45,267 bases of DNA, taken from positions 1 through 45,267 of IMG/VR virus record IMGVR_UViG_3300042323_000413; one strand, written 5' to 3'. Below the pieces are notes generated by a model. The model worked only from the letters and a program-made list of their open reading frames with translations, did no database searches and was not told the origin of the DNA. The stretch is from a virus. Below, piece after piece: positions 19,339 to 39,026 of the stretch (positions are counted from its first letter, which is position 1; every line of letters starts with the position of its first letter). The position numbers and the translations under genes are program-made.

Positions 19339-19571
19339 TGGACTACCTCCTCACCAAGCTGGCTGAGGAGGCCGGGGAGCTGGTGGTAGCGGCGCTCAAG
19401 CACCGTACCCACCGCTCAGCGAAGACACGCCGGGACCTCCGCAAGGAGTCCGGCGACGTACTCGCACTCCTGGGCATGCTTGTCAGGGAAGGCGAAGTCG
19501 ATCAGGCTGCGCTGCACAAGTCAACCCAGCGCCGGGCGGCGCGTGAACGTAAGAGGTGCAAGAACCGATGA
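19335..19571 (+). CDS. MazG/HisE-like pyrophosphohydrolase (78 aa)
   Basis: ATG at 19335 overlaps the ligase stop; a second ATG follows at 19338. The product begins MMDYLLTKLAEEAGELVVAA, with the E-x-x-E (EEAGEL) helix and the later E-S-G-D (KESGDVLALLGMLV) of the all-alpha NTP pyrophosphohydrolase superfamily. Members hydrolyse NTPs or phosphoribosyl-ATP. Phage MazG-like proteins are thought to tune nucleotide or alarmone pools. Short but complete for a one-domain subunit. Its stop overlaps the RNA polymerase ATG. Confidence 0.75.
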   Translation: MMDYLLTKLAEEAGELVVAALKHRTHRSAKTRRDLRKESGDVLALLGMLVREGEVDQAALHKSTQRRAARERKRCKNR

Positions 19572-22000
19572 CGCTACTCACCCAGGTCCAGATCGAGCAG
19601 CAGATGCGAGAGCAGGGCCGGGACCGCATCCTGGCAATGATCCAGACCGCAGAGGAGAAGGGCCGCGCCGCCACGGCACCCTATGCTCAGCGGGTCTTCC
19701 GGCAGTACGTCCTACCACTGGCCGCAGCCATCCGCGCGGACCTGACAGCAGAACGAGCAGGCCCCTACAAGGCGCACGCCAAGCTGCTGATGGAACTAGA
19801 GATAGACTCCGTGGCCTTCCTCACTGTGCGCCACGTTCTGAATTCCTGCCTTGCGAGCCCACAGCATCATCGCCAGTTGGGCTACAGCATTGGGCGCACC
19901 ATCCACCGGGAGCTTGTCCTAGCCCAGATCAAGGACGAGCTACCTGACCTGTACCATACGCTTGCTCGGGACTTCTCTCGTCGCATGAGTCAAGACGAGC
20001 GTCACCGCCTCACGGTCTTCAGGATGCAAGCCCAGAAGGCTGGCATGGAGATCGGGGAGTGGTCCATAGGTAGCAGGGATCAAGTGGGCCTCTACATGAT
20101 CCACCTCCTGGTGGAGATCGGGATGATCGACCTAGGCCCCATCATGTGCGATCCCCACACGCACAAGCGGGAGTACCGGGACGTGCACCTGACCGACGAG
20201 GCCCTCCGGATTCTGGACGAGGTGCGGGGCTACATGGCTGAGACGCTACCAAGCTACGGGCCTTGTGTCGAGGTTCCCATCCCCTGGACCGCCATGGTAG
20301 GCGGCGGATTCCACACCCCCGACATGCGCCGAATCCATCGCACCCTGGTCAAGACCAGTGCCACGGCGCGGCCTTGGGTTTTGAAGCACAGCCCGCCCGT
20401 TTTCCTGAGCGCCGTAAACGCCCTACAAGGCACCGCATGGCGTGTCAATAGGGGTGTGCTCCAGGTGGTCCAAGAACTCGCCTCCAAAGGGCTATACGCG
20501 GGCGAGGTGACGGCTCCGACGCCGCCCCAGAAGCCGGAGCGGCTGCCGTGGATGGATTCCGTGGAGCCCGGGACCATGACGCCCGATCAACAGGCGCAGC
20601 TCAAGACCTGGAAGATGGCGATGGTGGAGTGGTACGAGGCCCGCAAGCTACACACAGGGAAGTACGGGAGATTCTACACAGCCACCCGGCAGGCCGTGAC
20701 GTTCAAGGACTATCCTGAGCTGTACTTCGTGTACTTCGCGGACTCCCGCGGGCGGCTGTACCCGATGACCTACGGCATGAGCCCCCAAGGTAGCGACCTG
20801 CAGAAGTCCCTCCTGGAGTTCGCCCGTGGGATGCCCCTCAACACAGACAGCGCGATCTCATGGTTCCTGATCCAAGGGGCCAACAAGTGGGGCTACGACA
20901 AGGCTACCCTGGAGGAGCGCGAGCAGTGGGTCAGGGAAAGGCTGCCCCAGCTCACCAACATGGCAGAGGACCCGGTGAGCAACCGGGAGTGGCTGCAGGC
21001 TGACAAGCCTCTGCAGTTCCTGGCGTGGCTGCTGGAGTTCCGAGCATGGCGGCAGGACCCTAGCGGGTTCCTCTCCCGCATCCCCATCAGCATGGACGGG
21101 TCGTGCAACGGACTGCAGAACTTCTCGGCTATGCTGCGGGACGAGGTGGGTGGGCGCGCCACCAACCTAACCGACAACGACACCATGCAGGACATCTACA
21201 TGGAGGTCGCCAGGGCAGCAACAGCACGGCTGCCGTCAGTTGTCACAGAACGCACGGACCTACTGGACCTGTGGATCAAACGTGGCATCGAGCGCGGGCT
21301 GGTCAAGCGGGCTGTGATGACCACACCCTACGGGGTAACCTATCGTAGCGCGGTCAAGTACGTCGTCAGCGACTACCTTGCCACAGGCGCAGCCCCGGAG
21401 TTCCCCCGCAAGGAGTGGCCCAGGGCGGCAGAGATCGTCATGACTGCTGTGTGGGCCGCTATCGGTGACGTGGTGGTCAAGGCACGAGAGGCCATGGACT
21501 GGCTCAAGAAAGTCGGGAATCAACTAGCCGACCAAGCCAAGACGAATCCTGATCCCTTCCTGGCATGGACTACCCCAAGTGGGTTCCCTGCTTCGCAGGC
21601 GTACTTTGAAATGCAGGTCCACCGTATCCGGACTCTGCTCCATGGCGCTGCCCGCATTCGGGTTGTAAGCGAGACTGATGACACGGACATACGTAGGCAC
21701 TCCCAGAGTTTCGCCCCGAACTTCGTTCACAGCATGGATGCTTCACACCTACACCTTGTCTCAGCGAGAGCAGTCAAGGAAGGTATCATGGATCTCGCCA
21801 TGATCCATGATGACTACGGAACCCATGCGGCTAACGCTGGGAGACTGTACGACATCATCCGAGAAGAGTTCGTATTGATGTATGAACAGAATGACCCTAT
21901 CGAAGATATAGCCCGCCAAGCGCCTACTGTGCCGGGTAAACCAGAAAAAGGTACTCTCGACCTATCTGAAGTTCTTAGATCCAAATTCTTCTTTTCTTGA
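19568..22000 (+). CDS. Phage RNA polymerase, T7-type single subunit
   Basis: ATG at 19568 overlaps the previous stop; a GTG at 19556 gives four more residues. The 810-residue protein has the diagnostic motifs: catalytic Asp510 in MDGSCNGLQNFSAMLRDE; Lys580 and Tyr588 in KRAVMTTPYGVTYRS (counterparts of T7 Lys631 and Tyr639); SFAPNFVHSMDASHLHLV; and a final catalytic Asp in MIHDDYGTHA (about 748). It would transcribe the virion, lysis and packaging genes from the GGTCCCTATAGTAGC sites, the first two of which start 4 and 53 bases after its stop. Its position after the replication genes is phiKMV-like. Confidence 0.96.
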   Translation: MTLLTQVQIEQQMREQGRDRILAMIQTAEEKGRAATAPYAQRVFRQYVLPLAAAIRADLTAERAGPYKAHAKLLMELEIDSVAFLTVRHVLNSCLASPQHHRQLGYSIGRTIHRELVLAQIKDELPDLYHTLARDFSRRMSQDERHRLTVFRMQAQKAGMEIGEWSIGSRDQVGLYMIHLLVEIGMIDLGPIMCDPHTHKREYRDVHLTDEALRILDEVRGYMAETLPSYGPCVEVPIPWTAMVGGGFHTPDMRRIHRTLVKTSATARPWVLKHSPPVFLSAVNALQGTAWRVNRGVLQVVQELASKGLYAGEVTAPTPPQKPERLPWMDSVEPGTMTPDQQAQLKTWKMAMVEWYEARKLHTGKYGRFYTATRQAVTFKDYPELYFVYFADSRGRLYPMTYGMSPQGSDLQKSLLEFARGMPLNTDSAISWFLIQGANKWGYDKATLEEREQWVRERLPQLTNMAEDPVSNREWLQADKPLQFLAWLLEFRAWRQDPSGFLSRIPISMDGSCNGLQNFSAMLRDEVGGRATNLTDNDTMQDIYMEVARAATARLPSVVTERTDLLDLWIKRGIERGLVKRAVMTTPYGVTYRSAVKYVVSDYLATGAAPEFPRKEWPRAAEIVMTAVWAAIGDVVVKAREAMDWLKKVGNQLADQAKTNPDPFLAWTTPSGFPASQAYFEMQVHRIRTLLHGAARIRVVSETDDTDIRRHSQSFAPNFVHSMDASHLHLVSARAVKEGIMDLAMIHDDYGTHAANAGRLYDIIREEFVLMYEQNDPIEDIARQAPTVPGKPEKGTLDLSEVLRSKFFFS

Positions 22001-27686: not shown

Positions 27687-30600
27687 ATGAGTCGTCTCAA
27701 CGGTGCGTATCCCAGCGTTGTTGCTGGTGTCAGCCAGCTTCCCGATGTCTCACGCACGTTGGGGCAACACTCGGAACAGGTCAACATGGTGAGCGATCCC
27801 GTCCGCGGCCTGAGCCGGCGGAAGGGCTCTATCCAGCTCAGCGCGGTAGCATCCGCGGGCGAGCCGAATGCGTCCACCAGTCAGGATGCCACCATAACCC
27901 AGACTACCTCATTCCAGGTTAACGGTGCACCATTCAGCGTCACCATGAGAACTAAGGCACGCCCGCCCGGCAGCACCCTGCCGGACCTGACTGTGGTGAA
28001 CGACGCCACGGGCGCACAGCTAGTCATTTCCAGGCAGACTCCTGATGCCGACCTGGACCTCCTGCTGGCTGGTGGCGTCAAGGCTATCACGCCACTTGGT
28101 CGCTTCCTTGTGATGTCCGGCAATACTCTTCCGGTGGCCTTCACAACCACGGAAAACTTCCTGGTCGAGGCGAACCAGCAGCGCCACATTGTTTGGGTGC
28201 GCGGCGGTGCGTACAGTCGGACCTTCCAGATCAACCTGATCCGGGGCAACAACAAGTTCTCGGTGTCCTTCACTACCCCGAGTGCGTCTTATCCTGAGGC
28301 CCTGGATACCTCGGACCTGTTGGCGACCGACCCGGACTACCTGAAGAAAGTCAACGACCGCACGAACGTATACAACAGCGCCGCGACGAAATGGGCGGGT
28401 GACGCCCTGGCGCTGTCCAGCCCGGAGTCCGTGGCTGCGCGCTTGGCTGCGGAGCTTACGAACAGCGGCTTCCTGTCTGCTGGCGCTACGGTCTCTGTCG
28501 TCGGTAGCTCTGTTGCCATCACTGACCCCTCTATCGAGGACGTGGAAGTGGATGATGGCGGGGATCAGAGCCTGATGACCGCCGCGGGCAACACTGTCAA
28601 GTCCGTCGAGACTCTGACCAGCGTGCACTTCCCTGGCAAGATTGTCAGGGTGAGGGCCCAGGACGGCGCTGATGCTGTGGCCTTCTACATGAAGGCAGTG
28701 GCGAAAGATGGCAGCACTGGGGCCTACACCGAGGTCTCCTGGGAGGAGGCTGCGGGCACGACCTTCCAACCCACCCGCGGGTTGTGCTTCGGCACGGTCA
28801 TCGGAAACACCTTCCACATCGGCAGCAGTCCCGCCGCCATCCGCGCCCTCACGGGCCTGAGCTTCCCGGACTACCAGCCGAACCGCTCGGGTGACGCCAC
28901 CACGAACAAGCCACCGGAGTTCCTGCGGGATGGCCGTGTAGACATGCTGACGGTCTTCCAAGACCGCCTGATGATTGGTGCCAAGAACGCCGTCAATACC
29001 TCAGTCGTTGGGGACTACCTCAACTTCTTCAGGGCCAGCGTGGTCACGGTTTCCCCTGCGGACCCTGTAAACTTCGGCATCATCGGCGGTGAGGAGGATA
29101 CCCTCAGGAAGGCCCTGAAGTTCGACCTGAACTTGATCCTGTTTGGGGATGCCCAGCAGTACAGCATCAATGGCCGTCGCCCCTTCGTGCCTGGGCAGGT
29201 GAACGCATCCGTGATGTCCACCATCCCCTCGGCGTCTGCGGTTCAACCTGTCATGGGTGAGAACTACATGCTGTTCACGAAGGCGAATGGTATCTCCGGT
29301 AGCCTGCACCGCTTCCGCCCGGGTGAGGTGGATGGTAGCCCGGTAGTGGAGGAGGTCAGCGACGAGCTGGACGACTACATCAAGGGTGCCCCGGTGGGGC
29401 TCGTGGTGCACGACACCCCGAACTTCGCCTTCGTGCGTACTACGGCGGATCACAACACCGTCTACGTCTACCAGTTCAAGGACTACCTGAACGGGAAGAC
29501 GGCGCATCGGTCCTGGCACAAGTGGACGTTCTCCCCTACCCTCGGGGTACTCTACGGCCTAAGCACCTACAACGGGTACCTGCGGTTGTTGTTCCGTAGG
29601 AACGGGCACATCATCGTGGACTCCATTGCGCTGGATGTCGAGCCCGACGAGCGCCCGTTCTTGGACAGCATGGTCACGAACGCGGTTGGCGTGAAGCCCC
29701 CTGTTGGTGGCGACAGCTTCCAAGCCGCGGGGCGGGCTGCTGGCTACGTCGGTTGCAGTACGAACAGGGTCCTTGGCTTGGGGGCCAATGCTGGGTGGTA
29801 CGGGGTTGGCTTCCAGTCCTACTTCATCCCAGGTGTGCCGTTCCTGCTGGACCGGAACGGGCTGCCACTAGTGGGCGGGGAGACCACTGTACAGACCCTG
29901 CGGGTGCACACGGTTGACACTGGTGGGTTGTCATACCAACTGCGGGCCCAGGGGTCAACCGTGGGGGCTGGCCTACGAGGCGCGCCCCCACCGCCGCCCC
30001 CACCAGGGGATCCTAACTGGGCAAACGTGGTACTTGCCTTGGACTTTGAGGGGCCGGGCTTTGTTGATCGCAGCAGCTCACCGAGGACCATCGTTGTGTC
30101 CGGGGATGCGCAGATAAGTGGCACAGACCCGAAGTTTGGGGCGGGTTGCGGGTTGTTCGGCGGGTCTAATGACTTTCTCCAGGTTACTGACATTGGGAAC
30201 TTCGCGGCTGGGGACTTCACGGTTCAGGCATGGGTGTTCCTGAATAGTGCGGCAACTGGGTCACGTATTATCGTTGACACGCGGACTAGCAACACATCGT
30301 CAGGATTCGGCTTGTACGTGAGAAGTGACAGCAAGCTAACTTTGGTGATCACGTATGAGGGTTCACTTTCGTCGCAGCTTCCCCTGGTCGCTGACCCTAT
30401 AACTACCTTCCCAAAAGATCAGTGGGTGCACGTAGAGCTTGTCAAGAAGTTCTACCCCGCAAACACAAATACACCCAAAGGGCTCTTTACTTACGACATT
30501 AATCTGGTCTGGGTGTTTGCTAACGGCGTGCAGCTACTCGCTGACCAGGGAGAGGGACAGCCCCTGGCCACTATCCCCTTCGTGTTGCCGCCGGCGCCGA

Positions 30601-30755
30601 GTTATAACTTCAACAGTACCTCCCTACTCATCGGCGCTAGATGGGGCGGGGGTGCCAACTTCTGGTCAGGCCGCATTGATGACCTCCGCATCACCAAGAA
30701 AGCCCTCCATACCTCGTCCTTCGTCCCACCCACCGCAGCCCTACCCAACTACTAA
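27687..30755 (+). CDS. Tail tubular protein B (gp12-like nozzle) with C-terminal LamG-like lectin domain
   Basis: ATG at 27687. Residues 1 to about 765 are a normal nozzle protein, starting MSRLNGAYPSVVAGVSQLPD, with VSDPVRGLSRRKGS; T7 gp12 is 794 aa. Then comes a run of seven prolines (767-773) and an extra domain to residue 1022: VVLALDFEGPGFVDRSSSPR, GDFTVQAWVFLNS, TFPKDQWVHVELVKKF, FWSGRIDDLRITKKALHTSS. This is the concanavalin A-like LamG/laminin-G layout, usually glycan-binding. The nozzle is a homohexamer, so six lectin domains would sit near the tail tip. The extra domain has visibly less G+C-biased codons, suggesting later acquisition. Confidence 0.88.
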   Translation: MSRLNGAYPSVVAGVSQLPDVSRTLGQHSEQVNMVSDPVRGLSRRKGSIQLSAVASAGEPNASTSQDATITQTTSFQVNGAPFSVTMRTKARPPGSTLPDLTVVNDATGAQLVISRQTPDADLDLLLAGGVKAITPLGRFLVMSGNTLPVAFTTTENFLVEANQQRHIVWVRGGAYSRTFQINLIRGNNKFSVSFTTPSASYPEALDTSDLLATDPDYLKKVNDRTNVYNSAATKWAGDALALSSPESVAARLAAELTNSGFLSAGATVSVVGSSVAITDPSIEDVEVDDGGDQSLMTAAGNTVKSVETLTSVHFPGKIVRVRAQDGADAVAFYMKAVAKDGSTGAYTEVSWEEAAGTTFQPTRGLCFGTVIGNTFHIGSSPAAIRALTGLSFPDYQPNRSGDATTNKPPEFLRDGRVDMLTVFQDRLMIGAKNAVNTSVVGDYLNFFRASVVTVSPADPVNFGIIGGEEDTLRKALKFDLNLILFGDAQQYSINGRRPFVPGQVNASVMSTIPSASAVQPVMGENYMLFTKANGISGSLHRFRPGEVDGSPVVEEVSDELDDYIKGAPVGLVVHDTPNFAFVRTTADHNTVYVYQFKDYLNGKTAHRSWHKWTFSPTLGVLYGLSTYNGYLRLLFRRNGHIIVDSIALDVEPDERPFLDSMVTNAVGVKPPVGGDSFQAAGRAAGYVGCSTNRVLGLGANAGWYGVGFQSYFIPGVPFLLDRNGLPLVGGETTVQTLRVHTVDTGGLSYQLRAQGSTVGAGLRGAPPPPPPPGDPNWANVVLALDFEGPGFVDRSSSPRTIVVSGDAQISGTDPKFGAGCGLFGGSNDFLQVTDIGNFAAGDFTVQAWVFLNSAATGSRIIVDTRTSNTSSGFGLYVRSDSKLTLVITYEGSLSSQLPLVADPITTFPKDQWVHVELVKKFYPANTNTPKGLFTYDINLVWVFANGVQLLADQGEGQPLATIPFVLPPAPSYNFNSTSLLIGARWGGGANFWSGRIDDLRITKKALHTSSFVPPTAALPNY

Positions 30756-30766
30756 GGAGACCCCGT

Positions 30767-31090
30767 ATGGCATCCATACCGGGGTGGCCCACTCTACCGT
30801 CCACCTCGACTGTACTGCCGCCCCCGAGTAACCCCCTGTGGGAACTCGGGGCACTTCCACCTGAACAGGGGCACGTAGAGTCCGGGGTACTGCAAGAGGA
30901 AGCCACCCAAGATCCCAGTACCGAGGACGTAACCGTCCTGTTCCCGTTCGACACCGCGTCTTTCTCCCTCCCAGTGATGGCCCCACGTGACGACTATGCC
31001 GCCACCTTTGGGTCATACCTCTGGGCCCCGCTCACAGTCGTCCGCCTGGAGTACGAGAGCCGGTACTTCAACGTCACCCGCAGGGTGTAG
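30767..31090 (+). CDS. Hypothetical virion-region protein (107 aa)
   Basis: ATG at 30767 follows AGGAGACCCCGT. The first half is Pro/Ser/Glu-rich and probably disordered (STVLPPPSNPLWELGALPPE); the second half is more ordered (DDYAATFGSYLWAPLTVVRL) and ends RYFNVTRRV. No family recognised. It stands between nozzle and internal-core genes, so probably a late structural or assembly protein. Confidence 0.65.
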   Translation: MASIPGWPTLPSTSTVLPPPSNPLWELGALPPEQGHVESGVLQEEATQDPSTEDVTVLFPFDTASFSLPVMAPRDDYAATFGSYLWAPLTVVRLEYESRYFNVTRRV

Positions 31091-31098
31091 GAGAATCC

Positions 31099-31845
31099 AT
31101 GAACAGTTCTGTACCCATGGACACCATCGGCGCTATGTTCGAGCTTGGCGGCGCCCTAATTAAGAGTGACACTGAGCGCAGCATCCGGAAGTCCAACCGC
31201 AAGGTTGCGGATGCCCTCGCGAGTTCCCGGGAGGTTGTTCGCGGTGCGGCCAACCAGCGGGCGGCCTCGGTCGCCAGCCTGAGCCGTGCCCTGCAGAGCA
31301 TCAACAACGCACGCTTTGTCCGCGGCCGGGAGGCCGCCATCGCGCGGGCGCAAGGCGCCAGCATCCGGGAGCAGCAGGCATCCTCAGCAGGGGGCCTAGA
31401 AGCCCGCCTACGGGCCTCTGAGGAGGCAGGAGCTACCCATGCCGCTTCCGCCTTCTCCGGCGCCTCTGGGGGCTTCCTAGACGTTGCCCTGGCGACCCAG
31501 GCCCTGTCAGAGCAGCGGCTGGAGCAGCGGCGCAGGATGGATAGCCGGTTCCGCCTTGTTGGGGACGCGGACGCCATCGGGGGCATGCAGGAGTCCATGA
31601 TCGCTGGGCAGGATACCAGCATCATCAACACCAACCTGGACATGACTTCGAGCCCAGCTGGCAATGACCCCTACAGCCCGGGCGTGATGTCCCAGGTACT
31701 GACTACTGCTCTGGACAAGGACCTACTCAGGCCCCTGGTTAACTGGGGCGCAGGGTTCTTCAGCAAGAGGTCCACGCAGAGCGCAACAGACACTCCTGTC
31801 TTCGGTGGGGACTTTGTATCCCGCCGCGGGCAGCTCGACGAATAA
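31099..31845 (+). CDS. Internal virion protein, gp14-like
   Basis: ATG at 31099 with GTAGGAGAATCC. The 248-residue protein is strongly Ala/Ser/Arg-rich and helical (FELGGALIKSDTERSIRKSN, then RGAANQRAASVASLSRALQS), including a long coiled-coil zone, and ends in a more polar segment. In T7, gp14 is the first ejected core protein and forms an outer-membrane pore. Position, composition and order (gp14, gp15, gp16) support this assignment. T7 gp14 is shorter (196 aa). Confidence 0.8.
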   Translation: MNSSVPMDTIGAMFELGGALIKSDTERSIRKSNRKVADALASSREVVRGAANQRAASVASLSRALQSINNARFVRGREAAIARAQGASIREQQASSAGGLEARLRASEEAGATHAASAFSGASGGFLDVALATQALSEQRLEQRRRMDSRFRLVGDADAIGGMQESMIAGQDTSIINTNLDMTSSPAGNDPYSPGVMSQVLTTALDKDLLRPLVNWGAGFFSKRSTQSATDTPVFGGDFVSRRGQLDE

Positions 31846-31854
31846 GGAGACACC

Positions 31855-34053
31855 TTGGACTCTTACGCATTGCCTGACCGCCAGCCGGTAGGCCCGGGAA
31901 GCGCCCCGGATACCGTCAGCATCCGTGGCGGGGTCCAGGGTGGAGTGAACACCGGGATCAACACCAACTTCTCCCCCACCAACCCTAGCGCGGCGAACAG
32001 TACGCTGGACAGCTTGGCGCGGTTCAGCCAGCGGACGCTTGCGCCTGCCATCCAGCGGGAGCGTGAGGCCCGGTTCCTGCGTGGCGCCAGCAGGGTGGCC
32101 CAAGGGGAGGCCGCCGCGGACATCGACGAGCAGCGCCCCGCCTGGGCCAGGGCCTTCGGTGACACCGACGAGGTGCTCGGGGCGCGGGCCTACGAGGGCA
32201 AAGCTGACGCTGCCCGCGCAGAGCTGGCCCTGCGGGACACCATGGAGCAGGACGCCGAGCTTCCGCCCGACGAGTACGTCCAGGTTCTGCAGAAGCGGCT
32301 GGCCTCCCTGGAGACCGGGGACGTGGACCGGGATACTGTCTGGAAGTCCCAGGTTATGGGCAGCCTGCCTCTTCTGATGAAGGAACAGGCCAAGACCCAT
32401 AAGTCCTGGTCACAGAAGAAGGCGCTTGTTGCACGGGATAATGCCATCGGCGCACACGTCACGGCATTCGAGACGGCAGCCAAGAACGCGGGCTCCACAT
32501 GGAGCGTCGAAGACCGGCGAGCCTACGTGTCCAAGCTACTAAGCGACATCGCTCCGATAGCCCCAGGGGAGAACCCTGAGGTGCGGGATGCCCAACTTGC
32601 GCGGCATCTCGAGGCCCAGGTGGCGGCCGGCCGGTTCGCCACAATCAGCGTATTCAAGGAAACGCCAGAACTGTGGCAGAGTATCCCCACTGCTGTACAG
32701 GACCGCCTGGAGCAGATGGTGCGCACCCGCGCCAGCCAAGAGATCGGCAAGTCCATTGGGGACCATCCCGACCTGTGGGAGAGTGTGTACGGCATGAGCA
32801 GCAAGCGGTTCGGTAGCGTAGAGGAACTCCTTGGCGAAGCTCGGAAGATCAACGACGAGTTGCGCATCCGCACGGGTATCCCTGCGGACCTGATTACCCA
32901 GAACGATCTCATGCGTATGTGGGGACAGCAGCACGCCCAAACTGCTGCCGAGGCTAAGGCAACCGCAGCAGCCATCCGCAAGGCTCTCGGTGCAAAGGCC
33001 CGGGGTACTGCACCTGAGGCGGTACAAGATAACCGAGCTATGGCGGTGTTCGATATTCCGGGTGGGGCTGCACGGGCAAAGGACCTGGGCGTGCATACCA
33101 ACAGGGAACTGAACATCGCAGCGGACACCAAGTTCGGTCAGGTCTACCCGGACCCTAAGGCGACCGCGCAGTTCATCCTTAACGCAGGCCCGCACAAGAT
33201 CCCCGCAATGGAACAACGTGCGGCTGCCCTGGAGCAGGCTACGCAATGGTCCTCAGAGTTCGACGCGCAACTCCGTATTGTCCAGCAACTGGGCCTTGAG
33301 CGTGCCAAGTCCTCTGGCTACTGGTCCCCATTCACCATGCGGGTGATCGAGGAGTACGAAGGTCTCATCAATCAACGAGACTCCCGGGGCAACCCAGCTA
33401 CCACACCCCAGCTTGCCTTTGCCGAAGCACGGTCCAGGATTCTTGCGGAGCCCATCCGTGCCGCTGCTACCAAGGCGCGCCCTGATAAGGTCAAGAAGGC
33501 CATCGCCAAAACTGTCGATGACTGGGCGGACAAGTTCTTCGGGCCGAATCTTGCTACGGACCAGTCCAAGAAACTTCTGGGCAGTCTTGTGGGCATGGAG
33601 GTAGATCGCTCCCCTGTTGGGATGGACGACAGCTCTGCCGTTGCGAACGCTTGGGCACGGGTACAGTCCACCGCGAAGTCCATTGGCCCGCACTTCTACC
33701 TCGACAAGAGCGGTTCCTCCAAGGAACCGTGGGAGTTCTTTTCTGGCGCGGGGTATAGAGGGGCTGCCATTGCCCCTGCTTTCGAGGCAGTCATCCAGGA
33801 GAAGCTCGGCAAAGGCGCCAAGATCAACGAGGCTGATGTGATCATGCGCCTACCCGGCGGGTCTGATGACGACCCTGCCCAGGACTTGGTGTTCTTCACC
33901 ACTGCCGTAGGAAAGGATGGGGACATCATTCGGGTAGTTATCCGGAAGCAGGATCTCCAGCGGCACATAACCTCACAGGCACTGGCCCGCATCCCGCGCG
34001 CTGGTGTGGGCAACACCGTTAGCCCAGAGTTCGACACGGGGCTTTCACAGTAA
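31855..34053 (+). CDS. Internal virion protein, gp15-like
   Basis: TTG start at 31855, clearly indicated by AAGGAG eight bases upstream and the lack of a nearby in-frame ATG. The 732-residue product is close to T7 gp15 (747 aa). It opens MDSYALPDRQPVGPGSAPDT, has helical segments (RFSQRTLAPAIQREREARFL), and lacks membrane segments or enzyme motifs. gp15 and gp16 build the ejection conduit across the periplasm. Location between the gp14-like and gp16-like genes supports the call. Confidence 0.85.
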   Translation: MDSYALPDRQPVGPGSAPDTVSIRGGVQGGVNTGINTNFSPTNPSAANSTLDSLARFSQRTLAPAIQREREARFLRGASRVAQGEAAADIDEQRPAWARAFGDTDEVLGARAYEGKADAARAELALRDTMEQDAELPPDEYVQVLQKRLASLETGDVDRDTVWKSQVMGSLPLLMKEQAKTHKSWSQKKALVARDNAIGAHVTAFETAAKNAGSTWSVEDRRAYVSKLLSDIAPIAPGENPEVRDAQLARHLEAQVAAGRFATISVFKETPELWQSIPTAVQDRLEQMVRTRASQEIGKSIGDHPDLWESVYGMSSKRFGSVEELLGEARKINDELRIRTGIPADLITQNDLMRMWGQQHAQTAAEAKATAAAIRKALGAKARGTAPEAVQDNRAMAVFDIPGGAARAKDLGVHTNRELNIAADTKFGQVYPDPKATAQFILNAGPHKIPAMEQRAAALEQATQWSSEFDAQLRIVQQLGLERAKSSGYWSPFTMRVIEEYEGLINQRDSRGNPATTPQLAFAEARSRILAEPIRAAATKARPDKVKKAIAKTVDDWADKFFGPNLATDQSKKLLGSLVGMEVDRSPVGMDDSSAVANAWARVQSTAKSIGPHFYLDKSGSSKEPWEFFSGAGYRGAAIAPAFEAVIQEKLGKGAKINEADVIMRLPGGSDDDPAQDLVFFTTAVGKDGDIIRVVIRKQDLQRHITSQALARIPRAGVGNTVSPEFDTGLSQ

Positions 34054-34085: not shown

Positions 34086-37000
34086 ATGAGCATTGAACGA
34101 TTCCTGGCTGGCCTTGCCCAGCTTGAGACCGCTGGCGGAGCCAAGACCATCAAGGACCCCAGCGGCAAAGGCTTTCGTGCCTTTGACCGCGTGGAGAAAT
34201 CCAATGATGCCTACCGTGTGTTCGCGTCCCGCGAGGACGGCACACGGGAGGTGCTCGGGCTACTGGAGCGTCGCTACCCTCGTGCCCTTACGGCAAAGAC
34301 TTCCAGGGAGTTTGCCGAGGCCCTGAAGGCAGGCGGGTATGCCACGGACAAAGACTACGTTGAGAAGCTCACGCGGGTGATCGACGGGTTGCCGGCAGAT
34401 GCCTCGATCATTGCTTCTGCGGCGCCTGCTCCCGCTGCCGCCCCGCGCGCGGCTCTGCCAGCCAGTATCGGGGCGCCTACTGCGACACAGCCGGAGAACA
34501 TTGCGGCTGCCCAGGAGGCCCGCCTTGCAGACGAAACACGCCGAGAGGGTATCCAGTTCATGGATACTGTCCGAGTTGCCCTCGGTGATCCGGACACCAT
34601 GCTCGGATGGCAGGTTCTCGACGTGGCCTTGCGTGACCAAGAGCAGCGTCCCGATGGTTGGGATTGGATGCTGGTTCGTAATGACACCATCAAGGACCGC
34701 ACTCTGGAGGAGATCGAGGAGCTTGACGAGGACGCCAACAGCCCTGCGGCTGTCTTGCGTATCATAGGGGCGCAGAACAGGCGCAGGGAGAACAACAAGC
34801 ACTACCAGGACGCTGGCGGCTGGCAGACGTTCGCGGCGGGCACCTTGGCCTCCTTGGCCGACCCCTTGGGTATAGCCGTAAACGTCGCAACAGCAGGCAT
34901 GTTCCGCGCTGCCCGGATCGGCTCTGGTGCCTACATGGCCGCCGGTAAGACCCGCAGTGCTGTTGCCTCAGCCATCGCGGAGTCCACGGCCTCGGAGCTG
35001 GCTGTGACGTTCGCTGCAGATCTTGCCACCGGGCGGCAGACTGCGGAGGACTACGCCATCGCCACAGCGGCGGGTGCCCTGTTCGGCACGCTACCCGCGG
35101 CCAGTGCTTACCGGGGTGCGGCTGAGGTCGCAAACCTGAACATGGCCCAGGACATGATCGACAAGGCCATCCGAGAGAAGCTCGACAAGCCCCCGGAGGT
35201 TCGCCGGCAGGAGCAGGCCCAGGCCCTGACCGAGCTTACTGGGGACAACATCACCGCCAAGAAAGTGATGCCCGATGACCTCCGGCGGGAGATCGAGAAC
35301 GAGTACGATGGTCGCCCCAATGAGGCCAAGAAAGAGGCCAAGCTCGAGGCTGACGAGGCCGCAGCCCAGGAACGAGCGCGCATCCAGAAGGAAGCTGATG
35401 ATGCCGTTGCCGCTGGCAGGGAAGCTCCGCAGGGGCCATCTGAACCCAAGAGCTTTGTCCAAGAGCTTCGGGAAGCTGTGGTCGAGATGCGGGAGGCCCA
35501 CAAGGCAGGGGACTACACCAAGACCCGCACGCGAGTCAGGGAGCTGTTTGAGCGCGACGACGGGGGCATGACGGGGCTGCATGAGAACTACCTCGTTGAG
35601 CTGCTGACGGAGGCGGACCATGCTATCCTCGGCTCGGCCAGCAACAACTGGACGAAGCAGCGCCCTGCTACGAAGTCCGGGGACCCGGTAGTTCTACGGA
35701 CGGCGGGCAATACCCAAGAGTCCAAGCTCCGGGATATGAGGGAAGAGACTCCGGAGAAGGGCTACAATGTCAAGGAGACTTCCATCAGGAACGTCCTCCA
35801 GGCACTGACCCGCCAGACGCGCAACCCGGCCCATGCGAAGCTCGCCAAGTTTCTGCTTGAGCGTCTGAGCAAGCGGTTGCCCGGCGGTAAGGACGACCCG
35901 GTGCTCGATACCGTCCCGGTAGTCTTTAAGCGGTTCGCCGATACGGCCGATCCCAAAAGTAGCCCGCGCGGTATGTCTGCGCCTGAGGGTGCCGTCAGTG
36001 TTGGCATGACCGACAGGCGGCCCAAAGGCACAGCCCGTACCGTCGAGGAAATGAGGGACGCTTCTCTAGACGACCTTCTAGAGGACGCCACAGACTGGAC
36101 CATGGACACGACTCTCCACGAGATCATCCATGCAGTTACGCAGCAGGTAGTCTACCTGTACAGCCGACCAGAGCTGCGCGGCCTCCTGACCCCGGAGGTA
36201 GTGTCCGCACTGGATCGCATGAGTGATGTCCTGAAGCGCCTCCGGGTAGAGGTCAAGGGGCAGTATCCGGACAGCCCTACCTGGGACGGCAAGACGGTCG
36301 TTACCCTCGGGCCGAACTACGCTGCCTGGAATCTGGACGAGCTGTTCACTATGGCCTTGACAGACGCCGCAACCCAGCGGATGCTGTTCAAGATGCCAGC
36401 CAGTCCCACGTTCGGCGGCAAGTACAGCAACGCCCTACGGGAAGTCTTCGACACGATCCTGCGGGTACTCCGGGTCAAGCTGAAGGCCAAGAGGTCCTCG
36501 AACGCCATGGACGAGGTGATGTTCGCCTTCGAGATTCTCATGGACCGCCGCATTGGGGGCCTCAAGGATACCGCGGGTAACTTTCTCGGGTGGCGCGGTG
36601 ACAAGTTCGGACCTACCGCAGGCCCGCTCGATGCACAGGCCACCATCAACCCTATCCTGACGGTGAACCCTGCCAGGAAGTTCGCGGCCCGCATGCTGGA
36701 GCACGCGAGGGAGTGGGTCCGGGAGAACCCCATCGACCAGGACAAGGTGCGGGTACTGACGGACAAGATCGCAAGCCGCAGCGACGGGATCATCCTAGCC
36801 CGCAGCAAGAACCCTGTCATGCAGATGGTAGCTGGTATGGTCACGGAAGTCACGACAGGGGCAGCCGGGCGTAGGGCCACTGTAGCCATCCGTAAGAAAA
36901 TGCTGGAGTCCAAGCTCACAGGACGGGCCATTCAGGACTACCGGGCGGCCTTCTCCAACTGGCTGCGCACCAACAACCGAGGCGTTGTCTCTGAGGCTGT

Positions 37001-39026
37001 AACGGGGGACGGGGAGCGGGAGTTCGACCGCATCGTCTACGAGGAGATCCTAGCTCGGCGCGACGAGCAACAGGCGGTGTCTCAGGACCCCTCCGTGCGG
37101 GCCGCGGCGGACGCCCTGGAGCAGGTGTTCACCCGTGCCCTGGACGCCCAGAAGAAGGCGGGTGTGCTGGGTGCGCAGCGCCTACCGCCGCACTCCGTGG
37201 GCTACATTCCTCAGGCCCTGGATGGGCGCCGACTGGCTACGGCCAGTCTGGAGCAGATTCAGGAGCTTGAGGCGCACCTTGCGAAGCACTGGGCTACAGC
37301 TATCGGGTGGTCTACGGACTTCAGCCGGGAGTTCGCTCGGTACTACACGACCCGGGCAAGAGAGCGGGTGCAGAACACCAAAGGCGTCGATACTGCGGGC
37401 GGGGACAACTCGGCAGCCGTCATCCGGGACACCCTGGAGATCATGAAGGAGTTTCGGGCCAATGACCCGGCGGGCCTCGTGGAGATCAAGCGTGCTGAGG
37501 CCATCCTCGCCAAGGGTGGACAAGGGCACACCAAGCACCGCCTAGACGTTGATCTCCTGGCTGAGCTTCCCAGCGGTGCCCGGGTGATCGACTACTACGA
37601 GACTGGCAGCCTGAACCTGATGCGTCGGTACGTCGGGCGCACAAGTGGCACGGTGGCCCTGACGGAGTTCGGGATTCACGGCGCCACGGGCGCGCGGCAC
37701 TTGAGGAGGGCGATCTCCGAGTCGGGAGACTTGGCAGAACGGGCCACGCAAGAGGAGCTGGACGCCTTTGATCGTGTCATGGGCGAGATCCTGAACGGGC
37801 ACATTGAGGGCGAGCAGGCTGTACGCTGGGCGTCCAACCTTGCGAGCCTAGTACGAGTCCAGCGACTGGGCTCCCTGGTGTTCACGCAGTTCGCGGAGAC
37901 GATGAACATGGTGCACCACTTGGGCCTCACGACCACGCTCAAGGGTATCGCGTCCCTTCCGCAGATCATGGGTGAGGTTGGTCGTGTCAAGCGAGGGGCC
38001 CCGCGGAATCGCCACCTACTCACCCATATCGAGGTGTGGGGTGGTGACATCGGAATGGAGAACTACCAGCTCCGCGCCCCGCTGGAAGCCCCTGATGACC
38101 GGCTCGCTGAGTACACCCGTGATGCCGGCGTAACCGCTCGCCTGCTGTCCGGAATGCAGCACATACAGGGCAAGGTGACTGGCTTCCGCCGCCTGATGGC
38201 AGCGCAGCACCGCATGGTGGCCGAGCAGATCGTCATGAAGGCAGTCCGCTATGTCCAGGAGGGGAAGAACGACATCTACCTCAGGGACATGGGCCTGAAC
38301 GACGAACTGATCGCGCACATCCGGGAGAACCTGGATCGTGTGGCATCCTGGGACGACAAGGGCCAACTGACCCGGTTCGACGTTACCATGCTGCCAAACC
38401 CGGCGGCTGCTGAGGAGTTTGTCCAGATGGTCCATCGGGGCACCTCGCAGATCATCCAAGGTACCTTCGTGGGTGAGCGGACGGCGTGGATGCACAACGA
38501 TTACTGGAAGGTGATCGCACAGCTCCGCACCTTCGGCATCACCGCGATGGAGAAGCAGTGGTCTCGCACGGCCCGCCTCAACGGTGGTGGCACGTCAGGC
38601 TACGGCATCGCTGCCATGGTCCTGGTTGCGCAGATGGCCCTGATCCTGCCTATCCACTTGGCCCGTGTGCACCTCATGAGTGTTGGTCGTGAGGACCAGG
38701 AAGAGTACATCGAGAAGAACTTGCAGCCCGCCATGCTCGTGCGTGCGGTTGCGAACTACGCCTCGATGTCCGGCCTCCTGGGTGACTTCCTGGAGCTGAC
38801 TGGTGGCGTGGCTACTGGGTGGTCTGGAGACCCTGACCTCCTGGGCGGCCGGCACCCGAGCCAGCTTACCGTGGCTGGCGTCATCCCTGCGCTGGGAAGC
38901 GTGGACGCTGCAAGTAAGCTACTGCTTCAGGGGCAAGTTGTAGACAACCCATACTGGGCGCTCAAGCAGCTACCCGGGGCCAACATCCCATACGTCATCC
39001 CCTTCCTCAACCTGTTCAAGGAATAA
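34086..39026 (+). CDS. Internal virion protein, gp16-like, with HExxH metallopeptidase motif
   Basis: ATG at 34086 with CAGGAGAACC. At 1646 residues it is longer than T7 gp16 (1318). The first 100 residues resemble a shortened glucosaminidase/FlgJ-type peptidoglycan hydrolase: FLAGLAQLETAGG (candidate Glu14) and FAEALKAGGYATDKDYVEKL. T7 gp16 carries a transglycosylase at this place. Near residue 678 is TLHEIIHAVTQQ, an HExxH zinc motif (His678, Glu679, His682), with a possible third ligand at Glu752 in WNLDELFTMALTD. The rest is long helical conduit sequence with hydrophobic C-terminal segments (GIAAMVLVAQMALILPIHLA). It should be ejected into the cell envelope. Confidence 0.88.
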   Translation: MSIERFLAGLAQLETAGGAKTIKDPSGKGFRAFDRVEKSNDAYRVFASREDGTREVLGLLERRYPRALTAKTSREFAEALKAGGYATDKDYVEKLTRVIDGLPADASIIASAAPAPAAAPRAALPASIGAPTATQPENIAAAQEARLADETRREGIQFMDTVRVALGDPDTMLGWQVLDVALRDQEQRPDGWDWMLVRNDTIKDRTLEEIEELDEDANSPAAVLRIIGAQNRRRENNKHYQDAGGWQTFAAGTLASLADPLGIAVNVATAGMFRAARIGSGAYMAAGKTRSAVASAIAESTASELAVTFAADLATGRQTAEDYAIATAAGALFGTLPAASAYRGAAEVANLNMAQDMIDKAIREKLDKPPEVRRQEQAQALTELTGDNITAKKVMPDDLRREIENEYDGRPNEAKKEAKLEADEAAAQERARIQKEADDAVAAGREAPQGPSEPKSFVQELREAVVEMREAHKAGDYTKTRTRVRELFERDDGGMTGLHENYLVELLTEADHAILGSASNNWTKQRPATKSGDPVVLRTAGNTQESKLRDMREETPEKGYNVKETSIRNVLQALTRQTRNPAHAKLAKFLLERLSKRLPGGKDDPVLDTVPVVFKRFADTADPKSSPRGMSAPEGAVSVGMTDRRPKGTARTVEEMRDASLDDLLEDATDWTMDTTLHEIIHAVTQQVVYLYSRPELRGLLTPEVVSALDRMSDVLKRLRVEVKGQYPDSPTWDGKTVVTLGPNYAAWNLDELFTMALTDAATQRMLFKMPASPTFGGKYSNALREVFDTILRVLRVKLKAKRSSNAMDEVMFAFEILMDRRIGGLKDTAGNFLGWRGDKFGPTAGPLDAQATINPILTVNPARKFAARMLEHAREWVRENPIDQDKVRVLTDKIASRSDGIILARSKNPVMQMVAGMVTEVTTGAAGRRATVAIRKKMLESKLTGRAIQDYRAAFSNWLRTNNRGVVSEAVTGDGEREFDRIVYEEILARRDEQQAVSQDPSVRAAADALEQVFTRALDAQKKAGVLGAQRLPPHSVGYIPQALDGRRLATASLEQIQELEAHLAKHWATAIGWSTDFSREFARYYTTRARERVQNTKGVDTAGGDNSAAVIRDTLEIMKEFRANDPAGLVEIKRAEAILAKGGQGHTKHRLDVDLLAELPSGARVIDYYETGSLNLMRRYVGRTSGTVALTEFGIHGATGARHLRRAISESGDLAERATQEELDAFDRVMGEILNGHIEGEQAVRWASNLASLVRVQRLGSLVFTQFAETMNMVHHLGLTTTLKGIASLPQIMGEVGRVKRGAPRNRHLLTHIEVWGGDIGMENYQLRAPLEAPDDRLAEYTRDAGVTARLLSGMQHIQGKVTGFRRLMAAQHRMVAEQIVMKAVRYVQEGKNDIYLRDMGLNDELIAHIRENLDRVASWDDKGQLTRFDVTMLPNPAAAEEFVQMVHRGTSQIIQGTFVGERTAWMHNDYWKVIAQLRTFGITAMEKQWSRTARLNGGGTSGYGIAAMVLVAQMALILPIHLARVHLMSVGREDQEEYIEKNLQPAMLVRAVANYASMSGLLGDFLELTGGVATGWSGDPDLLGGRHPSQLTVAGVIPALGSVDAASKLLLQGQVVDNPYWALKQLPGANIPYVIPFLNLFKE

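Follow-up and report, generated by a model that had tools for sequence, protein, structure and literature searches.

Genome context and the ejection-protein gene

The window analysed in this study is the whole virus record of 45,267 bases, which is assigned by gene content to a T7-supergroup podophage. It carries portal, capsid and tail genes, genes for three internal virion proteins, a terminase and a single-subunit RNA polymerase, the last encoded by a separate gene (19556-22000) apart from the ejection protein. The internal virion proteins lie on the plus strand in the order gp14-like (31099..31845; phrog_5745, E 3e-16), gp15-like, the ejectosome partner (31855..34053; phrog_3883, E 3e-62), and gp16-like, the ejection hub (34086..39026). 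A sequence-only reading had placed the last gene at 34086-36400; the start is correct, but the true end is 39026, giving a protein of 1646 residues. Upstream of this cluster, the nozzle (tail tube B) protein (27687-30755) bears a Laminin_G_3/lectin-like domain C-terminally at residues 826-916, and a small ORF just downstream of its gene (30767-31090) aligns with the final 48 residues (746-793) of phrog_457, the usual nozzle family, so that the nozzle C-terminus may have been displaced or duplicated.

The profile phrog_342, named 'internal virion protein with endolysin domain', matches residues 74-1645 of the gp16-like protein with an E-value of 4e-149, and profile comparison retrieves T7 gp16 (E 2e-10) and phiKMV gp37 (E 1.5e-30). 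Both the family profile and the gp14-gp15-gp16 gene order identify it as a T7 gp16-type hub. When ejection proteins are compared, VPv81 (Autographiviridae), a Variovorax phage, is the nearest named one. Pfam and PHROG profile searches revealed no RNA polymerase domain within the gp16-like protein, and no anti-phage defence family was matched. Two hydrophobic segments, residues 249-267 and 323-341 (34830..35108, plus strand), were located by hydropathy; they fall in the part that profile alignment pairs with residues 297-444 of T7 gp16. The conserved C-terminal hub/membrane part, residues 841-1646 (36606..39023, plus strand), is found in all 60 non-redundant gp16-like proteins compared here.

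A shortened N-terminal glucosaminidase

Residues 1-105 (34086..34400, plus strand) form a GH73/FlgJ-like glucosaminidase segment, with matches to PF01832 and to FlgJ structures (E 6e-6). The PF01832 match is genuine (E 4.3e-9), its 37.5 bits exceeding the curated cut-off of 30.2, but no more than positions 50-119 of the 123 in the profile are covered, which agrees with the earlier description of this N-terminus as shortened. The catalytic domain is incomplete, as 14 residues including NLFNIK are missing in comparison with the sister contig L002. This contig, with 97% identical DNA, contains 42 bp more, and its PF01832 match starts from profile position 18 with an E-value of 7e-14. The lost segment is GPNGEDSHNLFNIK, and the deletion junction at 34148..34161 (plus strand) is marked by imperfect direct repeats of the form CATCAAGGxCCCCAxxGGC. 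An assembly slip in a single contig was considered as the source of the short glucosaminidase and rejected, as the same 42-bp loss is seen in another contig, L001/L022, which shows 4 differences from the window over 11.3 kb (99.96% identity); the two contigs could stem from one population. The candidate catalytic residue Glu14 is retained in the shortened segment.

The N-terminal hydrolases differ among the relatives, being a glucosaminidase, an SLT or a Phage_lysozyme2 domain, or none that could be found. The closest full-length relatives, VPv81 and the IMG/VR proteins L024/L025 and L028, share 45-52% identity in the C-terminal part and possess the same zincin slot described below, whereas VPv81 and L028 differ from the window protein by their N-terminal hydrolases, Phage_lysozyme2 and SLT, respectively.

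The HExxH motif and its conserved ligand set

The sequence-only reading had pointed to an HExxH motif near residue 678 and to Glu752 as a possible third ligand. The motif HEIIH is found at residues 678-682 (36117..36131, plus strand), with His678 and His682 as predicted ligands and Glu679 as the predicted catalytic residue. Glu752, in the sequence NLDEL (36339..36341, plus strand), is the predicted third metal ligand and sits in a helix predicted by AF2. The two histidines and the glutamate of HExxH together with a downstream glutamate constitute the ligand set of zincins.

A lone HExxH is weak evidence, as shuffled sequences give an expectation of 0.023 per protein of this kind. Most relatives were gathered from IMG/VR by scanning with the conserved C-terminal part while the motif region was left unused, so that the motif played no part in choosing them; a phage collection contributed a few named phages as well. 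Exactly one HExxH is present in 38 of the 60 proteins (about 1.4 would be expected in all 60), always 944-1046 residues before the C-terminus. When the 38 slot domains were aligned, with a mean column identity of 18%, the only invariant columns were His678, Glu679, His682 and Glu752. The same four columns are invariant in further alignments of different make-up (A2, A3, A4 and A7 in all), one of which includes phiKMV-type proteins, so the conservation by which the motif had been proposed to stand or fall holds in all four alignments. In addition, the pattern NxxE[FLM] occurs 45-125 residues downstream of HExxH in 29 of the 38 proteins; random positions in the same proteins gave a mean of 2.9 and a maximum of 8. 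The HExxH observation in the gp16-like protein is thus confirmed.

Homology and predicted structure of the zincin-like domain

The core of the domain spans about residues 562-802 (35769..36491, plus strand). Taken alone, the domain of the window matches phrog_2206, the N4-type virion RNA polymerase, with an E-value of 3.5e-9. A profile of the HExxHAxT-type members matches residues 2097-2383 of N4 gp50 (E 1.1e-10 at Z=1000), which coincides with domain C1 (residues 2124-2375), the HExxH-bearing domain in the solved N4 polymerase (PMC12633501); this region had been assigned to the zincin-like MPTases (PMC5512222). N4 is not listed among the matches of the wider A2 profile. The family profile also matches solved ejection proteins, namely 9sfn (3e-13), 8vb2, which is PhiM1 gp48 (9e-8), and 23sg (5e-4). 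In single-sequence tblastn searches the domain alone gave only weak matches (E 0.5-10), so its homology rests on profiles. None of the Pfam metallopeptidase models matches the window protein, even at E 10; MPTase-PolyVal (PF18818) likewise shows no match to it up to E 10, and matches 1 of the 38 members at E 0.017.

The same family profile yields weak matches to thermolysin (0.007), IrrE (0.016) and lethal factor, all of which are zincin peptidase folds. Non-proteolytic HExxH enzymes of the iron/alpha-ketoglutarate type also exist and have been mentioned for N4 C1 (PMC12633501). In the window protein the predicted third ligand is a distant glutamate in the following helix, and together with the weak profile matches this makes an enzyme of that type the least probable identity of all those considered. 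The slot domain is very likely related to the zincins, with its set of ligands intact; zinc binding and proteolysis are predicted activities.

The AF2 model has an overall pLDDT of 68, with the core helices mostly at about 80-93 and residues 626-657 low. The active-site helix, the Glu752 helix and the C-terminal helices are of high confidence, and the beta sheet, three-stranded in zincins, is weak, with short strands only. A second, trimmed structure model was poorer than the first. BFVD matches of the AF2 model are phage polyvalent, core and vRNAP proteins, all of them predicted structures. A Foldseek search of the PDB with this model, which is of moderate confidence, gave no usable match and no solved zincin. 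This result would suit a domain of structural or regulatory function whose metal site is inherited but unused, such as a core packing element or a DNA guide. The PhiM1 authors suggest that grooves formed by the domain guide DNA (PMC11440229). In N4, encapsidation requires the CTD (PMC5512222), which also acts as an inhibitor of the polymerase (PMC12633501). A purely structural role leaves unexplained why only the predicted metal-site and catalytic residues are invariant in 38 sequences, and the domain is wholly lost in many relatives. We therefore regard such a role as improbable.

The corresponding domain in phiKMV-type ejection proteins

The zincin domain is widespread in phiKMV-type gp37 proteins. 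The tetrameric ejection protein gp48 of PhiM1 (8vb2, PMC11440229) and phiKMV gp37 contain the same domain at an equivalent insertion in the hub, with HExxH and the downstream glutamate kept; they differ from the window protein in a shorter N-terminus without glucosaminidase and in being labelled endolysin-like. The phiKMV gp37 protein (L103 3567-7580) is 1337 residues long, as is the solved 9sfn chain, and shows HEAVH at residue 423 together with a zincin profile match.

According to this label the domain would be a peptidoglycan hydrolase. In the databases, phiKMV gp37 and its relatives go under the name 'internal virion protein with endolysin domain', and residues 268-528 of the PhiM1 protein were termed endolysin/exotransglycosidase-like (PMC11440229). 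However, the zincin profile matches residues 278-512 of PhiM1 gp48, inside that very domain, and neither phiKMV gp37 nor PP16 gp48 has a Pfam peptidoglycan hydrolase match. In the window protein the hydrolase is a separate, N-terminal part. The label was probably carried over from T7 gp16, and a peptidoglycan hydrolase at this position is very unlikely. From the sequence comparisons, we think that the 'endolysin' domain of PhiM1 and phiKMV is a misassigned zincin-like domain.

According to a study of 2020, prediction yielded no proteolytic domain in Phikmvvirus (PMC7552054). The zincin was also considered as the LUZ19 protease that cuts the alpha subunit of host RNA polymerase, and this assignment was rejected, as expression of Rac alone, free of phage, causes the cut (PMC7552054).

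An insertion slot in the ejection hub

The zincin-like domain lies in a slot of about residues 441-840 (35406..36605, plus strand), an insert that is missing from the relatives without HExxH. Occupancy of the slot columns is about 0 in the 22 motif-less proteins and mostly 0.3-0.9 in 37 motif-bearing ones, and both flanks align throughout in all 60 proteins. An empty slot measures 12-31 residues and a filled one 270-540. Comparison of the close pairs L019/L017 and L069/L093 revealed a single clean insertion, and at least 4 changes are required for the presence and absence of the insert on a tree of the C-terminal part. The PhiM1 paper independently reports insertion of the corresponding region into the hub in comparison with T7 (PMC11440229). 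In the VSW-3-like clade (L069, L087, L068, L081) the zincin aligns about 60 residues upstream of the slot of the window, which may be an alignment error or a second insertion point.

T7 gp16 resembles the window protein in synteny, in its hub and membrane parts and in an N-terminal peptidoglycan hydrolase, but it has no insert; a chance HERLH near residue 560 aligns outside the slot. The slot maps in the alignment between T7 gp16 residues 444 and 499, within gp16-C, which has been modelled as extending into the host cytoplasm (PMC8954989). By hydropathy, hydrophobic segments flank the slot at residues 249-341 before it and 1508-1614 after it. If the T7 topology applies, the insert would come to lie beyond the first membrane region, facing the cytoplasm, which makes a target in the cytoplasm more probable than one in the envelope.

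Although its catalytic residues are fixed, the domain core has a mean pairwise identity of just 21%; the neighbouring hub has 25% and the C-terminal body 45%. Such divergence is by itself no proof of an arms race, since the neighbouring hub is nearly as divergent. Compared with the 97%-identical sister contig, dN/dS is 0.22 in the zincin domain and 0.04 in the compared part of the C-terminal region, and the zincin domain is under purifying selection.

Other enzymes in the slot of relatives

The protein of the window combines a hydrolase and a zincin only; relatives add an ADP-ribosyltransferase (ART) or a GNAT acetyltransferase. In L031, an ART-PolyVal ADP-ribosyltransferase occupies residues 507-640 directly before the zincin, with 77 bits against a cut-off of 31. 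A second strong ART-PolyVal match was found in another Pfam-scanned set; judged by a weak direct comparison, it most likely belongs to L138, at about residues 373-540, before the zincin. In L041, a GNAT acetyltransferase is found before the zincin at residues 339-420 (27.9 bits, cut-off 20.7), flanked by an imperfect, partial duplicate of the adjoining sequence, whereas L042 lacks the GNAT though its C-terminal part is identical to that of L041. The motif-less L065 has a part-filled slot with a GNAT at residues 589-635 in place of the zincin. Polyvalent proteins, which are injected, are well known to contain ART and MPTase domains (PMC5512222), and because these domains are typical of such proteins the slot looks like a payload bay. 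One gp16-like protein is unusually long (L133 2372-7789; 1806 residues, HExxH at 857); the approximately 400 residues upstream of its HExxH have no Pfam match and may hold an unknown payload.

The order of these domains also bears on the main rival to a host target, namely that the zincin cuts the hub itself or its gp15- or gp14-like partners after ejection, freeing the payload or hub or dismantling the channel. The zincin is C-terminal to the ART or GNAT in L031, L138 and L041, as if releasing them. Such processing has been proposed for the MPTase domains of polyvalent proteins, with a precedent in the processing of DdrB of phage P1 (PMC5512222), and the ejection channel must come apart after use. 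On the other hand, the zincin is the sole payload in most relatives, and the zincin-less relatives (22 of the 60) still eject. Moreover, the homologous domain of PhiM1 gp48 is visible and uncleaved in the core after assembly (PMC11440229), and the vRNAP of N4 enters the capsid whole and unprocessed (PMC5512222), so any cleavage would be post-ejection. We judge self-cleavage of the ejection apparatus unlikely.

Proposed mechanism

Based on the computed features, we propose an ejection hub with an exchangeable payload slot, whose zincin probably cleaves one or more host proteins in the cell after ejection. The domain, its ligand set, its homology to N4 and to solved ejection proteins, the one place of insertion and the other effectors in the slot are all computed observations; beyond them, we infer that the metal is zinc, that the domain is proteolytic and lies in the cytoplasm, and that its substrate comes from the host and not from the phage. 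In the virion, the hub protein would be packed in the core above the portal. During ejection, it would thread through the tail ahead of the DNA and refold in the host envelope and cytoplasm, where the N-terminal hydrolase would open the peptidoglycan and the membrane segments would insert into the inner membrane. His678, His682 and Glu752 would then serve as the metal ligands and Glu679 as the general base of a zincin-type metallopeptidase, and the cytoplasmic zincin would cleave at least one host protein at the very start of infection, in an effector or anti-defence role. The earlier suggestion of a zinc peptidase ejected with the DNA is borne out as far as a metal-peptidase-like site with Glu752 in an ejected protein is concerned. 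As candidate targets it named envelope proteins, host defence proteins and the internal core itself; the uncleaved state of the PhiM1 gp48 domain and of packaged N4 vRNAP speaks against cleavage of the core ahead of packaging or within the particle.

Relation to known systems and implications

The polyvalent-protein MPTases and N4 vRNAP (Iyer et al. 2017, PMC5512222; PMC12633501) share with the present family a homologous domain with HExxH and a downstream glutamate, packaging of a giant protein in the capsid for ejection, and co-occurrence with ART domains. The present domain differs from that of N4 vRNAP in its setting: the hub into which it is inserted is of the T7 gp16 type and has no RNA polymerase, and the conserved slot that it fills may in relatives be vacant or taken by other enzymes. 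Polyvalent proteins and N4 thus already provide examples of phage zincins that are ejected; phiKMV, gp16 and internal virion proteins are unmentioned in the text of PMC5512222. Within the literature covered, mostly papers outside subscription, the conserved exchangeable slot in T7/phiKMV-type gp16/gp37 hubs, its alternative payloads and the reassignment of the 'endolysin' domain appear to be new. The removable nature of the insert, its spread in phiKMV-type gp37, the other slot enzymes and the 42-bp deletion behind the short glucosaminidase also go beyond what the sequence-only reading had noticed.

The zincin reading would correct both the common labelling as 'endolysin domain' and the claim that a proteolytic domain is not predictable in Phikmvvirus, and the domain is already contained in the deposited virion structures 8vb2 and 9sfn. 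We lean towards the view that the gp16/gp37 hub is a general effector-delivery platform in many T7-supergroup podophages, in which interchangeable slot enzymes, the 'endolysin-like' domain of PhiM1 and phiKMV among them, would enter before the genome and act before phage gene expression. Searches for new anti-defence enzymes could start from the slot. If the protease is active, T7/phiKMV-type phages, whose internal proteins have long been seen as delivering a DNA channel only, would also deliver enzymes at the onset of infection.
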